DNA of 64,000 nucleotides from Brumimicrobium oceani (GTDB lineage: Bacteria; Bacteroidota; Bacteroidia; Flavobacteriales_D; Crocinitomicaceae), in NCBI RefSeq assembly GCF_003143775.1, contig NZ_QFRJ01000001.1, positions 558,001 to 622,000 on the forward strand, written 5' to 3'. The stretch's first letter is position 1; each line of letters starts with the position of its first letter. This document shows, in pieces, positions 15,765 through 19,640 of this stretch. The notes below the pieces were generated by a model, which made no database searches, was not told the origin of the DNA, and saw only the letters and a program-made list of their open reading frames with translations. The position numbers and the translations under genes were made by a program.

Positions 15765-17804
15765 ATGAATTTTGTTTACCCAAATATCCTCTATTTACTG
15801 TTATTGCTAATCATCCCGATTATCATTCACTTGTTCAATTTTAGACGATACAAAAAGTTATATTTCTCCAGTTTACAGTTTATTAAAAAAGTTGAAAAAG
15901 AAACCAATGCAACAAAAAACTTAAGACATTATCTCGTTTTAGCTTGTCGAATGTTAGCTTTCGCAGCATTAATTTTGGCTTTTGCTCAACCTTACATTCC
16001 AACATCAACACAATCTAAATCTTACGAAAACCTTATCCCTATTTATTTGGATAACTCCTACTCAATGTCTGCTAAAGGAAGTAATGGTGATTTATTGAAT
16101 CAAGCCAAAACCACAGTGCAACAAATTGCAGATGCTTATCCTAAAGGTCAGCGCTATATTTTAGTAAGCAATGCACTTGCGGGAACGGAACACAGAATAA
16201 TTACTCGTTCTGAATTGGAAGATAAGTTGGCAGACATTAGTCTTTCCCCAATTTCTAGAAAAATCACAAATCCATTGGAGAGTATTAAAGAGTATTTAAG
16301 CTCAATTGCTTACTCAGGGAATTTGCATTATTATGTGATTTCTGATTTTCAAAATCAAGATTTACAAGATACAGATGCACGGATAGATACTACAGCGCAA
16401 TATTCATTTCTTCAGCTTGAACCACAAATCAAACGTAATTTGTATATAGATTCTATATGGTTTGACCAGCCTTTTCAGCGTGTTAACATGAATAATTCAC
16501 TGAATATTCGCGTTCACAATACAGGAAATGAGAAATTAACTAACATTGAGCTCCTCTTAAATGTTGGTGGAAATAGACGCCAATCACTGATTGATTTAGA
16601 ACCGAATAACAACACTGTTGTTAAAATGAATTACACCGACAAATCTTCAGGAACAAAAGTAGGAACAGTAGAAGTTATAGACCAAAATTTATATTTCGAC
16701 AACAGTTTTCACTTCGCTTACAATGTTGAAGAATCTATAAATGTCTTGGTCATAAACGATGAAAATTCAACTTCATTTCCAGCACTGGTATATGCCACAG
16801 ATGATTTTTACACTGTTCAGGAAAGCCTCGTTGGACAATTAAAAAGTAATGAATTAAATGAGGCCAGTCTTATTGTATTGAATGAAATCAACGCTATTTC
16901 TTCAGGACTTCAAACTCAATTAAATCAACTAGCTGCCAATGGAGTACATATTTTAATCATTCCGTCTCCAAATTTTGAAGCAAAGTCTTACAATAATTTG
17001 ATGAGCTCATTTCAACTACCACTATACCGCGAGACTTCCGCCCAAGAAATTAGAATTGGGAAAATTTCATCTGAGCTAAGTTTTTTCACAGGCATGTTCG
17101 ATGAGAACGTAGACAATATCAGAATGCCACCATTAAAAAAATACATCAGCTCTTCCATTTATAATAATAGCAACTATAACTTATTGATTCAATACGAGAA
17201 TGCTATGCCCCTTATGGTTGAACAAGCAAACGGGAAAAACGTCTACGCGCTCTACTCTGCCATTCATCCTGATTTCAATAATTTTGGTAAATCAGCATTG
17301 TTTTCATCTTTACTTTTAAGAGTCGGTGAAAGAAGTCAGGACCAATTGCCATTATCGCTAACAATTGGTTCATCTGATAGCTACAGAATGAGAATGCCCA
17401 AGAACAAAGAAAGCGCTGTACTTTTAAAGCAAGAGGAGATAGAATTTATTCCTGAAATGACTCAAAACACAGGATTTACATCAATTTCCGTGCGCAATGC
17501 CATTAATAATCAATCCATAAAAGATGGGGTCTACACGATTTTAAATGGTGAGCAAGAGCTCAGCAAGTTAGCTTTAAACTACAATCGTTATGAATCCGAA
17601 ATGAATTACGCCACTGAAAATGAAATAACAAGCTTTTTTAAAAATTTAGATGTTAAAAATATAAACACAAAAGGAATTTCAACCCTTACAGATATTCAGC
17701 AATTAACACTTGAAAAACACAGTGAATTTTGGAGAATTCTCTTAATTTTGGCGCTAACGTTTTTTCTTTTAGAAATGCTCATACTCATCTTTTGGAAAGT
17801 ATAA
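15765..17804 (+). CDS. BatA-like membrane protein (aerotolerance regulator N-terminal domain)
   Basis: This 679-residue inner-membrane protein opens with the BatA N-terminal domain: a helix at residues 5-23, the basic loop NFRRYKKLYFSSLQFIKKVE and a second helix near 56-74. A von Willebrand A-like domain follows, with DNSYSM near residues 91-96 in the position of the metal-binding DxSxS motif. Next comes a long extracytoplasmic beta-rich region. A last helix lies just before the C-terminus (about 655-677). Family members sit with MoxR/BatB-E in other bacteria, but none are here. It begins a three-gene rightward operon; the next gene starts one base after its stop. Role unknown. Confidence 0.85.
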   Translation: MNFVYPNILYLLLLLIIPIIIHLFNFRRYKKLYFSSLQFIKKVEKETNATKNLRHYLVLACRMLAFAALILAFAQPYIPTSTQSKSYENLIPIYLDNSYSMSAKGSNGDLLNQAKTTVQQIADAYPKGQRYILVSNALAGTEHRIITRSELEDKLADISLSPISRKITNPLESIKEYLSSIAYSGNLHYYVISDFQNQDLQDTDARIDTTAQYSFLQLEPQIKRNLYIDSIWFDQPFQRVNMNNSLNIRVHNTGNEKLTNIELLLNVGGNRRQSLIDLEPNNNTVVKMNYTDKSSGTKVGTVEVIDQNLYFDNSFHFAYNVEESINVLVINDENSTSFPALVYATDDFYTVQESLVGQLKSNELNEASLIVLNEINAISSGLQTQLNQLAANGVHILIIPSPNFEAKSYNNLMSSFQLPLYRETSAQEIRIGKISSELSFFTGMFDENVDNIRMPPLKKYISSSIYNNSNYNLLIQYENAMPLMVEQANGKNVYALYSAIHPDFNNFGKSALFSSLLLRVGERSQDQLPLSLTIGSSDSYRMRMPKNKESAVLLKQEEIEFIPEMTQNTGFTSISVRNAINNQSIKDGVYTILNGEQELSKLALNYNRYESEMNYATENEITSFFKNLDVKNINTKGISTLTDIQQLTLEKHSEFWRILLILALTFFLLEMLILIFWKV

Positions 17805-17805
17805 A

Positions 17806-19068
17806 ATGAAGATATTACTTAAACAAGCAACTATTTTAGACAAGGCTTCTGCTTATTTCAATCAGCAAAAGGACATTCTAATTGTCGATGGAAAAATCTC
17901 CAAAATTGCAGATTCAATAAGGGATGAAGAAGCACAAGAAATTTCTAGTAATGAACTTTATGTATCCCAGAGTTGGGTAGATTTAAAAGCAGATTTCTGC
18001 GATCCCGGATTCGAATACAACGAAGATATTCAAACAGGTCTTGCAGCCGCCGCAGATGGAGGATTCGGACATGTTTTCGTTGTTCCTACCACATCGCCAA
18101 TAGTAGACAGTAAAGGACAGGTCAATTACCTAAAGGCCGAGAGCGCTAAGCATATTTCTGATTTGTACCCGCTCGGTGCAATTACAAAATCTGCAAAAGG
18201 AGATAGTCTTGCAGAAATGTACGACATGTATAAGGTAGGAGTTCGTCTTTTTACTGATAACACCCATTTTATTTCTGCTGGAATTTTATTTAGAGCATTA
18301 CTCTACGTTAAAAATTTCGGTGGGAAAATAATTTCCTTTCCGCAAAACGAATCCATAAGTGAAGGTGGTCAAGTAAACGAAGGAACAGCATCTTTAAAGA
18401 CAGGATTAAAAGCTATTCCTGCAATTGGTGAACAAATTCAAGTACAAAGAGATTTAAGTTTATTGGAATATACGGATGGTGAATTACATTTCTCAGGTAT
18501 ATCTTCCGCAGCATCACTAAGATTAATTAAGGAAGCTAAAGCAAAAGGGGCTAAAGTAACTTGTGATGTTCACTTACATCAGTTGTTATTTACGGAACTA
18601 GATACTTTAGATTATGACACCAACCATAAAGTTTTCCCACCTTATCGCAGAGAAGAAGACAGAATTGCACTTTGGAATGGAATAAAAGATGGCACAGTTG
18701 ATACTATTGTCTCAAACCATCAACCGAAAACTGTAGAGGAAAAAGATATTGAGTTTGATAATGCTGAATTTGGAAGCATTACTTTACAAACTTTTTATGC
18801 TTCTTTAGTTGACAAAAACCTAGCTGATCAAGCAGATTTTATTGATAAAATTTCGGTTCAACCACGAAAAATTGCTAATTTTAGTCTAGATACAAGCATA
18901 AAAGAAAATAATTTCGCTGATTTAACTCTTTTCGATCCCACAATAGAATGGGTGTTTGACAAGGAATCAAATCTTTCGAAAAGTGAAAACTCACCTTACT
19001 TTGGCAAAAATATGAAAGGTAAAGCTATCGGAATTATCAAAAACAATACACAAACATTTAACAACTAG
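17806..19068 (+). CDS. Dihydroorotase homologue lacking metal ligands (probable pseudo-enzyme)
   Basis: The 420-residue protein follows the PyrC type I dihydroorotase fold from end to end, including the conserved GGFGHV..PTTSP region and a C-terminal DLTLFDP...NSPYFGK block. The metal site is gone: the usual HxH of the VDxHxHxRxPG signature reads Lys61-Ala-Asp63 with Cys65 for the substrate Arg. The DHCED histidine is replaced within SFPQNE, the HxxHxS histidine by Gly in HFSGIS, and the catalytic Asp of TDHAPH by Asn in SNHQPK. Hydrolysis or ring closure of carbamoyl aspartate is therefore unlikely. Non-catalytic PyrC' proteins support aspartate transcarbamoylase in some bacteria; whether this one does is unknown. 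It lies between the BatA-like and methyltransferase genes. Confidence 0.85.
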   Translation: MKILLKQATILDKASAYFNQQKDILIVDGKISKIADSIRDEEAQEISSNELYVSQSWVDLKADFCDPGFEYNEDIQTGLAAAADGGFGHVFVVPTTSPIVDSKGQVNYLKAESAKHISDLYPLGAITKSAKGDSLAEMYDMYKVGVRLFTDNTHFISAGILFRALLYVKNFGGKIISFPQNESISEGGQVNEGTASLKTGLKAIPAIGEQIQVQRDLSLLEYTDGELHFSGISSAASLRLIKEAKAKGAKVTCDVHLHQLLFTELDTLDYDTNHKVFPPYRREEDRIALWNGIKDGTVDTIVSNHQPKTVEEKDIEFDNAEFGSITLQTFYASLVDKNLADQADFIDKISVQPRKIANFSLDTSIKENNFADLTLFDPTIEWVFDKESNLSKSENSPYFGKNMKGKAIGIIKNNTQTFNN

Positions 19069-19073
19069 ATCAC

Positions 19074-19640
19074 TTGGACAAGAAGAAAGACAATTTTCTG
19101 AAGGAATTTTTTAAAGAACGAAAAACAGTCGGTGCTATTCGCCCGAGCTCTAAGTCATTGGCCAACAAAATGTTGAAAAATGTTGACTTTAAAAATTCAA
19201 ATGTAATTGTTGAATTTGGTCCGGGAACGGGGGTTTTCACAAGGCGCATCATTGAGGAAATGAACGCTGAAGCGAGTTTGTATGTTTTTGAGTTACATGG
19301 TCCATTTTTTGAAAAACTTATGGAACAGTATAAAAATGATAGCAGAGTAAAAGTGATTAATGATAGCGCTGCAAATGTGAGGAAATATTTGGAGGAAGAC
19401 AATAAAGATTATGCTGATGTCATCATTTCATCTCTTCCACTTACTAACTTTGATCAAAAGTTAACCATGCGTATTTTAAAATCGGCAGAAATAGCGCTTA
19501 AAACAGAAGGGCAATATATACAGTTTCAGTATTCCTTAAATGCCAGAAAACTATTAAATAAAATCTTTAATTCTATTTCTATCCAGTTCACTGCAAACAA
19601 CTTGCCTCCTGCTTTTGTATACACGTGCAAAAAAAAATAA
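19074..19640 (+). CDS. Small class I SAM-dependent methyltransferase
   Basis: This 188-residue protein has motif I VEFGPGTGVFTR (about residues 43-54) for S-adenosylmethionine, an acidic end to the next strand (YVFELH) and a SSLPLTNF motif near 114-121 in the position of the NPPY-like motif IV. The arrangement resembles phospholipid N-methyltransferases and the KsgA-like rRNA dimethylase group; the substrate could be a phospholipid or other small molecule. The only start that includes the N-terminal helix is TTG at 19074, five bases after the previous stop; the next ATG is about 30 codons inside. It probably belongs to the BatA operon. Confidence 0.75.
   Translation: MDKKKDNFLKEFFKERKTVGAIRPSSKSLANKMLKNVDFKNSNVIVEFGPGTGVFTRRIIEEMNAEASLYVFELHGPFFEKLMEQYKNDSRVKVINDSAANVRKYLEEDNKDYADVIISSLPLTNFDQKLTMRILKSAEIALKTEGQYIQFQYSLNARKLLNKIFNSISIQFTANNLPPAFVYTCKKK

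Follow-up and report, generated by a model that had tools for sequence, protein, structure and literature searches.

Pseudomonas genomes encode a separate, active dihydroorotase (DHOase), PyrC, as well as a second DHOase homologue (pDHO), the gene of which typically adjoins pyrB, the gene for aspartate transcarbamoylase (ATCase). PyrI, the regulatory subunit of class B ATCases, is a protein unrelated to the DHOase homologue described here, termed PyrX, a non-catalytic type-I protein of 420 residues that is encoded at 17806..19068 on the forward strand of a 64,000-nucleotide stretch of the Brumimicrobium oceani genome (the window; contig NZ_QFRJ01000001.1, positions 558,001 to 622,000) and is recognised by its open reading frame (ORF), profile match, alignment and predicted fold. 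We take the class of the source organism to be Bacteroidia and its phylum Bacteroidota, and these are the class and the phylum referred to below. In the class A2 enzyme of Pseudomonas, ATCase activity depends on the inactive pDHO (PyrC'), which PyrB needs for the formation of active trimers (PMC7053772). PyrX resembles this protein in being a dead DHOase homologue that accompanies PyrB without PyrI; unlike pDHO, it is found in another phylum, is mostly encoded beside a gene for a BatA-like membrane protein rather than with pyrB, and is a candidate subunit.

The closest solved relative of PyrX, in sequence and in fold, is the DHOase of the class A1 DHOase-ATCase complex of Aquifex aeolicus (3d6n, 4bjh), which forms a dodecamer with ATCase and in which ATCase orders loop A of the DHOase and renders it active (PMC3880350). 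Zinc binding and activity within the complex set the Aquifex subunit apart from PyrX. A zinc-ligand-free DHOase fold beside an ATCase also occurs in the fungal CAD pseudo-DHOase (ura2, Chaetomium), which we liken to PyrX on the basis of its description in PMC7053772, but which is a domain of a eukaryotic fusion protein. PyrI possibly occupies the same structural slot as PyrX, and the two do not co-occur in any of the 247 genomes of the class that were searched. Among the titles and abstracts listed, in a survey whose coverage omits most subscription papers, nothing was found on a pseudo-DHOase in Bacteroidota.

Compared with these systems, the window genome has the composition of class A2: a DHOase fold with its catalytic residues lost, a PyrC elsewhere (activity predicted), and PyrB without PyrI, for which a search of the genome gave no match. 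A separate contig (G000:C30) carries the intact PyrC, which belongs to the PRK09236 type and scores 734 bits against NF006688 (cut-off 535), and PyrB adjoins PyrR on contig C9, so that the adjacency to pyrB typical of pDHO is lacking for PyrX, on contig C1. This PyrC falls narrowly under the TIGR00857 cut-off (278.2 versus 279.05 bits), whereas the dead PyrX passes it, and automatic annotation would label PyrX a dihydroorotase. As a separate observation, glutamine replaces the first metal histidine (QVH) in the PyrC of the window genome (L022:3413-4774), a feature common to several relatives.

PyrX is a real protein, class-wide in the present sample and prone to mis-annotation; its kind is known from Pseudomonas and its genomic home is new. 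On the evidence of sequence comparison and analogy set out below, PyrX is likely, with a probability of roughly 0.7, to be a relocated, non-catalytic DHOase subunit that keeps the ancestral job of binding ATCase (PyrB).

A lost metal site in a retained fold

PyrX is a full-length homologue of type-I DHOases, with a score of 284.1 bits against TIGR00857 and an E value of 3e-73 against the Aquifex enzyme. An earlier note on this DNA, made from the sequence alone, had proposed that all residues that hold the metals are replaced, and this applies to five of the six. The first-shell ligands of Aquifex DHOase listed in PMC3880350 are His61, His63, Asp153, His180, His232 and Asp305, with which Lys61, Asp63, Asp151, Phe178, Gly231 and Asn304 of PyrX are aligned; Asp151 (18256..18258, forward strand), the equivalent of Asp153, is the sole ligand retained. 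The remnant of the HxHxR metal and substrate motif (Lys61, Asp63, Cys65) lies at 17986..18000 on the same strand, with Cys65 at the position of the substrate arginine, and Lys61, Cys65, Asp66, Pro67 and Gly68 are unchanged across the 10 rows of our alignment A1. PyrX lacks the full set of metal-binding residues of an active PyrC.

The preservation of the fold that the earlier note had also proposed is borne out by the full-length profile match and by an AlphaFold prediction from 17 alignment rows, with a mean predicted local distance difference test (pLDDT) value of 84.5 and a predicted template modelling (TM) score of 0.88; an earlier run with 10 rows was poor (pLDDT 50.8). The top two Foldseek matches in the PDB are Aquifex DHOase complexed with ATCase (TM scores 0.89-0.90; 0.89 for 3d6n), and lower values relative to query length (0.78) are obtained with structures of the free Aquifex enzyme, in part on account of unresolved loops in their chains. 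Furthermore, PyrX shares 70-87% identity with its homologues at five Brumimicrobium loci, and the ratio of nonsynonymous to synonymous substitution rates (dN/dS) is 0.05-0.06 in comparisons with three Brumimicrobium homologues and 0.08 with a fourth, synonymous sites being close to saturation; a fifth comparison is saturated and yields no ratio. PyrX is a maintained protein, neither a decaying gene nor a chance reading frame, and the selection on a pseudo-enzyme that the earlier note had envisaged is thereby upheld.

Ligands were read in the genomes fetched, which are not a random draw (98 from the class, 25 from the rest of the phylum). Degenerate copies, with at most four of the six ligands, were found in 97 of the 98 class genomes, two of these copies (G166 and G303) being broken or cut off with some ligand positions unreadable; the exception, G071, has all six ligands and pyrB immediately upstream of its DHOase gene. 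Outside the class, all six ligands are retained in 22 of 25 genomes. The 11 named loci nearest the window (L005-L015) have all lost ligands, although the set varies (L010 has His63, and L010-L015 have Asp305). Sequencing error and gene decay are ruled out by this loss in relatives, together with the 97 degenerate class copies and the low dN/dS. The degenerate class copies and L005-L015 form one clade (support 0.974), which also includes the out-of-class locus L142, and parsimony on the DHOase tree requires three state changes. The tree indicates that the ancestor shared by the class copies read, with the exception of G071, had already lost the intact six-ligand site, and that other ligands disappeared separately. 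The residues that fill the lost positions vary among lineages, and two class genomes (G152 and G156) retain His61, His63, Asp153 and Asp305, so that the term 'metal-less' is true of the window but not of every relative. The apparent source of PyrX is the intact DHOases of Bacteroidota, with an origin separate from that of the Pseudomonas pDHO, which is not among the sequences in these trees and alignments.

The distribution of conservation is consistent with a retained binding surface. Between 21 intact DHOases and 98 non-redundant PyrX sequences, conservation drops most at the metal motifs (from 0.84 to 0.59 at residues 61-75 and from 0.77 to 0.57 at 301-315), is held at residues 196-210 (0.70 and 0.71) and rises at 136-150 (from 0.59 to 0.67). 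A loss centred on the metal motifs is what a binding subunit would look like, and it argues for PyrX as a partner of ATCase, the contact itself being inferred. In Aquifex, loop A is disordered in the free DHOase and takes on order when ATCase is bound (PMC3880350); its putative counterpart in PyrX lies in the region of residues 184-210 (18355..18435, forward strand), where it may likewise touch ATCase, and residues 185-201 are predicted with low confidence. Glu192, Gly200, Pro205 and Glu209 are conserved in 95-100% of the 98 PyrX sequences but also in 86-100% of the 21 intact DHOases, and are therefore not specific to PyrX.

PyrX follows the type of ATCase

In the sample of 247 class genomes, first-pass searches (thresholds E 1e-35 for PyrX and 1e-40 for PyrB) returned PyrX in 209, PyrB in 238 and PyrI in 12. 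More sensitive searches of the 38 PyrX-negative genomes added 12 diverged copies (eight in family f66, three in f54 and one in G133), so that f66 and the part of f54 in which PyrX had seemed to be missing after the first search do carry it. The final totals are 221 genomes with PyrX, 12 with PyrI, none with both and 14 with neither. Among PyrB-positive genomes, PyrX is present in 218 of the 226 without PyrI and in none of the 12 with PyrI (Fisher's exact test, 2e-15); among PyrI-free genomes, it is present in 218 of the 226 with PyrB versus three of the nine without (1e-6). Both p values are nominal because the genomes are related, and the PyrI genomes span six families and therefore represent few independent events. 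PyrI was not found in a sample of 118 genomes from the phylum. Of the 14 genomes in which neither partner was detected, six also lack a PyrB match over 1e-40; in two others, G318 and G196, the contig breaks off at the BatA gene, on the side where PyrX is expected, which would explain the absence. The genus g15 (family f9) provides a paired case, in which G071 has both PyrB and a DHOase, G268 has neither, and BatA is kept in both.

PyrB itself is divided along the same line. In a tree of 88 PyrB sequences, those from PyrX genomes, f66 apart, fall within a single 50-leaf clade (support 0.75; 0.98 for 46 leaves), with G071 as its sister (51 leaves, 0.94) and the DHOase-adjacent PyrBs next, weakly placed (0.54); PyrI-linked PyrBs and those of f5, f66 and f73 fall outside. 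Identity to the PyrB of the window genome is 64-86% in PyrX genomes other than f66 and f54, and 33-37% in nine PyrI-linked sequences. The PyrX-PyrB relation, the grouping of the PyrBs and the contrast within g15 all point to PyrX as an ATCase partner, as do the Aquifex relative and the Pseudomonas precedent.

Several further matches and PyrB copies were noted. In family f44, L148 (G246:C52) and L154 (G196:C75) carry a PyrB that resembles the PyrI type (33-36% identity to that of the window genome), with no PyrI found in these searches; G246 additionally has the usual PyrB and PyrX, its PyrI-type-like PyrB lying outside the clade. Contamination or transfer could account for such copies. At L266 (G133, family f46) a diverged PyrX stands right behind BatA and PyrB was not found, which reflects either a genuine exception or a gap in the assembly. 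The matches in G268, G318 and G324 (E 1e-39 to 1e-49) were assigned to other amidohydrolases because an HVHINEPG-type motif occurs in the same frames (L201, L198, L195), and a fragment in G327 is PyrC. Frames of about 350 codons in f73 (G169:C6, G198:C248, G223:C244) give weak N-terminal matches (E 1e-6 to 1e-7) to a broad PyrX profile, and an f73 ORF of 418 codons, two genes from pyrB, was checked and is not PyrX. The PyrBs of f5 are 41-45% identical in two genomes, and at L275 (G012, f5) PyrB is part of a cluster that includes a further carbamoyltransferase-like ORF and a gene of a lyase family.

Gene order, the BatA neighbour and competing explanations

Gene order was read at 40 loci from 38 families of the class, excluding G071, and at 19 loci elsewhere in the phylum. 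In the latter, pyrB lies immediately upstream of the DHOase homologue at seven of 19 loci, L042 and L049 being two more, which together with G071 supports an ancestral link between PyrX and ATCase. Intact type-I relatives are thus found encoded right behind pyrB in several lineages of the phylum. PyrR is encoded beside pyrB at all seven of the intact DHOase-adjacent phylum loci read and in the window genome, though not at two degenerate loci of family f10 or in G071; within the class, 39 of the 40 PyrX genomes fetched for PyrB have it close to pyrB and in the same orientation, and in the single exception PyrB is 52 bases from a contig end. At most class loci read, PyrX stands behind the BatA gene, with pyrR-pyrB at another place. 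The two f10 loci (L130 and L143, in G006 and G001, from another class of the same phylum), at which the degenerate DHOase gene overlaps pyrB by 4 bases, exemplify a dead subunit encoded in one operon with ATCase. At L016:2393-3703, in a named Omnitrophota metagenome-assembled genome, a DHOase homologue with RAHLC for HxHxR and four of six ligands overlaps the end of pyrB and is probably another, separate pseudo-DHOase.

The simplest history suggested by gene order would run from pyrR-pyrB-DHOase to pyrR-pyrB with a relocated PyrX. By analogy with Aquifex and Pseudomonas, PyrX dimers would hold two trimers of PyrB together in a dodecamer and so stabilise or activate PyrB, PyrX filling the place that PyrI holds in other class members. 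If this is true, most of the class (221 of 247 genomes) runs the committed step of pyrimidine synthesis with a dead-enzyme subunit; the Pseudomonas-type arrangement would have had an apparently separate origin with its stages visible (operon partner, loss of the metal site, relocation), and a single phylum would allow the comparison of three ATCase partners, namely intact DHOase, dead DHOase and PyrI.

A number of observations weigh against PyrX as the partner of PyrB. In none of the 40 class loci is pyrB within three genes of PyrX. Family f66 has a very diverged PyrX, yet its PyrB stands outside the main clade, which cuts both ways, since f66 does have a PyrX of its own. PyrX was not found in G324 or G327, both of which, like G318, sit in the PyrX-type PyrB clade; f5 (G012) and f73 (three genomes) carry PyrB with neither PyrX nor PyrI found, and conversely G133, G242 and G287 have PyrX with no PyrB over 1e-40, for which assembly gaps are possible. 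BatA was found in 25 of 26 genomes with PyrX and in 11 of 27 without it (53 searched), so that it is rarer where PyrX is absent. Finally, in pairwise distances across 27 genomes (G195, G335 and G187 were left out, each missing a gene), PyrX correlates best with BatA (rho 0.69), followed by PyrR (0.56) and PyrB (0.50), and the partial correlations are 0.62 with BatA given PyrB and 0.35 with PyrB given BatA.

The overall BatA-PyrX association is real, and the distance correlations leave room for a role of PyrX with BatA. PyrX might instead serve the BatA-like membrane protein, as a partner in solution or as a regulator, in a recruited function apart from pyrimidines; a link to envelope or stress biology is what the earlier note had favoured. 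The adjoining genes at 30 of 40 class loci, the co-occurrence and the correlation speak for such an envelope or stress role, although linkage and slow evolution of PyrB may be the cause of the stronger correlation. However, BatA is kept without PyrX in five genomes that also lack PyrB over 1e-40 (G150, G183, G209, G268, G298) and in three PyrI genomes (G232, G256, G317), and is in this respect independent of PyrX; one PyrX genome (G335) has no detected BatA, the pairing is missing at 10 of 40 loci, and the exclusion of PyrI and the PyrB clade are left unexplained. An envelope role in place of pyrimidine synthesis is therefore unsupported, since PyrX follows the ATCase type and BatA persists where PyrB is absent or PyrI is present, and we consider this account unlikely. 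More doubtful still is that PyrX acts as a bridge, holding PyrB and docking the complex onto the BatA protein at the membrane; both associations are present and two partners are compatible, but the BatA pairing is missing in a quarter of loci, and it is similarly improbable that a class-wide pseudo-DHOase ties ATCase to BatA such that the committed pyrimidine step is put together at the inner membrane or controlled from there. The widespread BatA neighbour does pose a testable question. Residual dihydroorotase or other amidohydrolase activity at an unusual site, free of metal or with a single one, for which the four ligands of G152 and G156 and the tolerance of the Aquifex enzyme to replacement of both beta-site histidines by alanine (PMC3880350) might be cited, is very improbable in view of the single ligand in PyrX, the missing substrate arginine and the many different residues at ligand positions across the class.

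Neighbouring genes in the window

The earlier note had placed PyrX between two other ORFs, separated from them by 1 and 5 bases, and this arrangement is confirmed, all three genes being on the forward strand. The upstream gene (15765..17804) encodes a BatA-like inner-membrane protein of 679 residues with an N-terminal double-anchor domain (PF07584, 74.1 bits versus a cut-off of 25.9; TIGR02226). A DxSxS stretch is seen by eye in its translation, Pfam calls no vWA domain, and there are no MoxR family matches among the seven window proteins scanned; the membership of this protein in a functional unit with PyrX is uncertain. The downstream gene (19074..19640) encodes a small methyltransferase of 188 residues with a remote likeness to OlsG/PmtA lipid N-methyltransferases, scoring well below the curated cut-offs for these enzymes (103.8 against 350 for NF041658 and 78.8 against 250 for NF045881).

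As a conserved trio, the arrangement holds in part. BatA lies directly upstream of PyrX at the 30 class loci mentioned above, with a median gap of 6.5 bases and well beyond the family of the window, but the methyltransferase follows PyrX at only two of 40, both in that family; it is thus ruled out as a conserved third member and is probably outside the PyrX functional unit. At L005-L015, PyrX is flanked by ORFs of 574-687 and 184-188 codons, compared by length and place only, and homology of the third gene is demonstrated in L023, L084 and L085. A scan for promoters and terminators returned 22 promoter-like sites, versus 18.6 expected, and one terminator-like site on the reverse strand.

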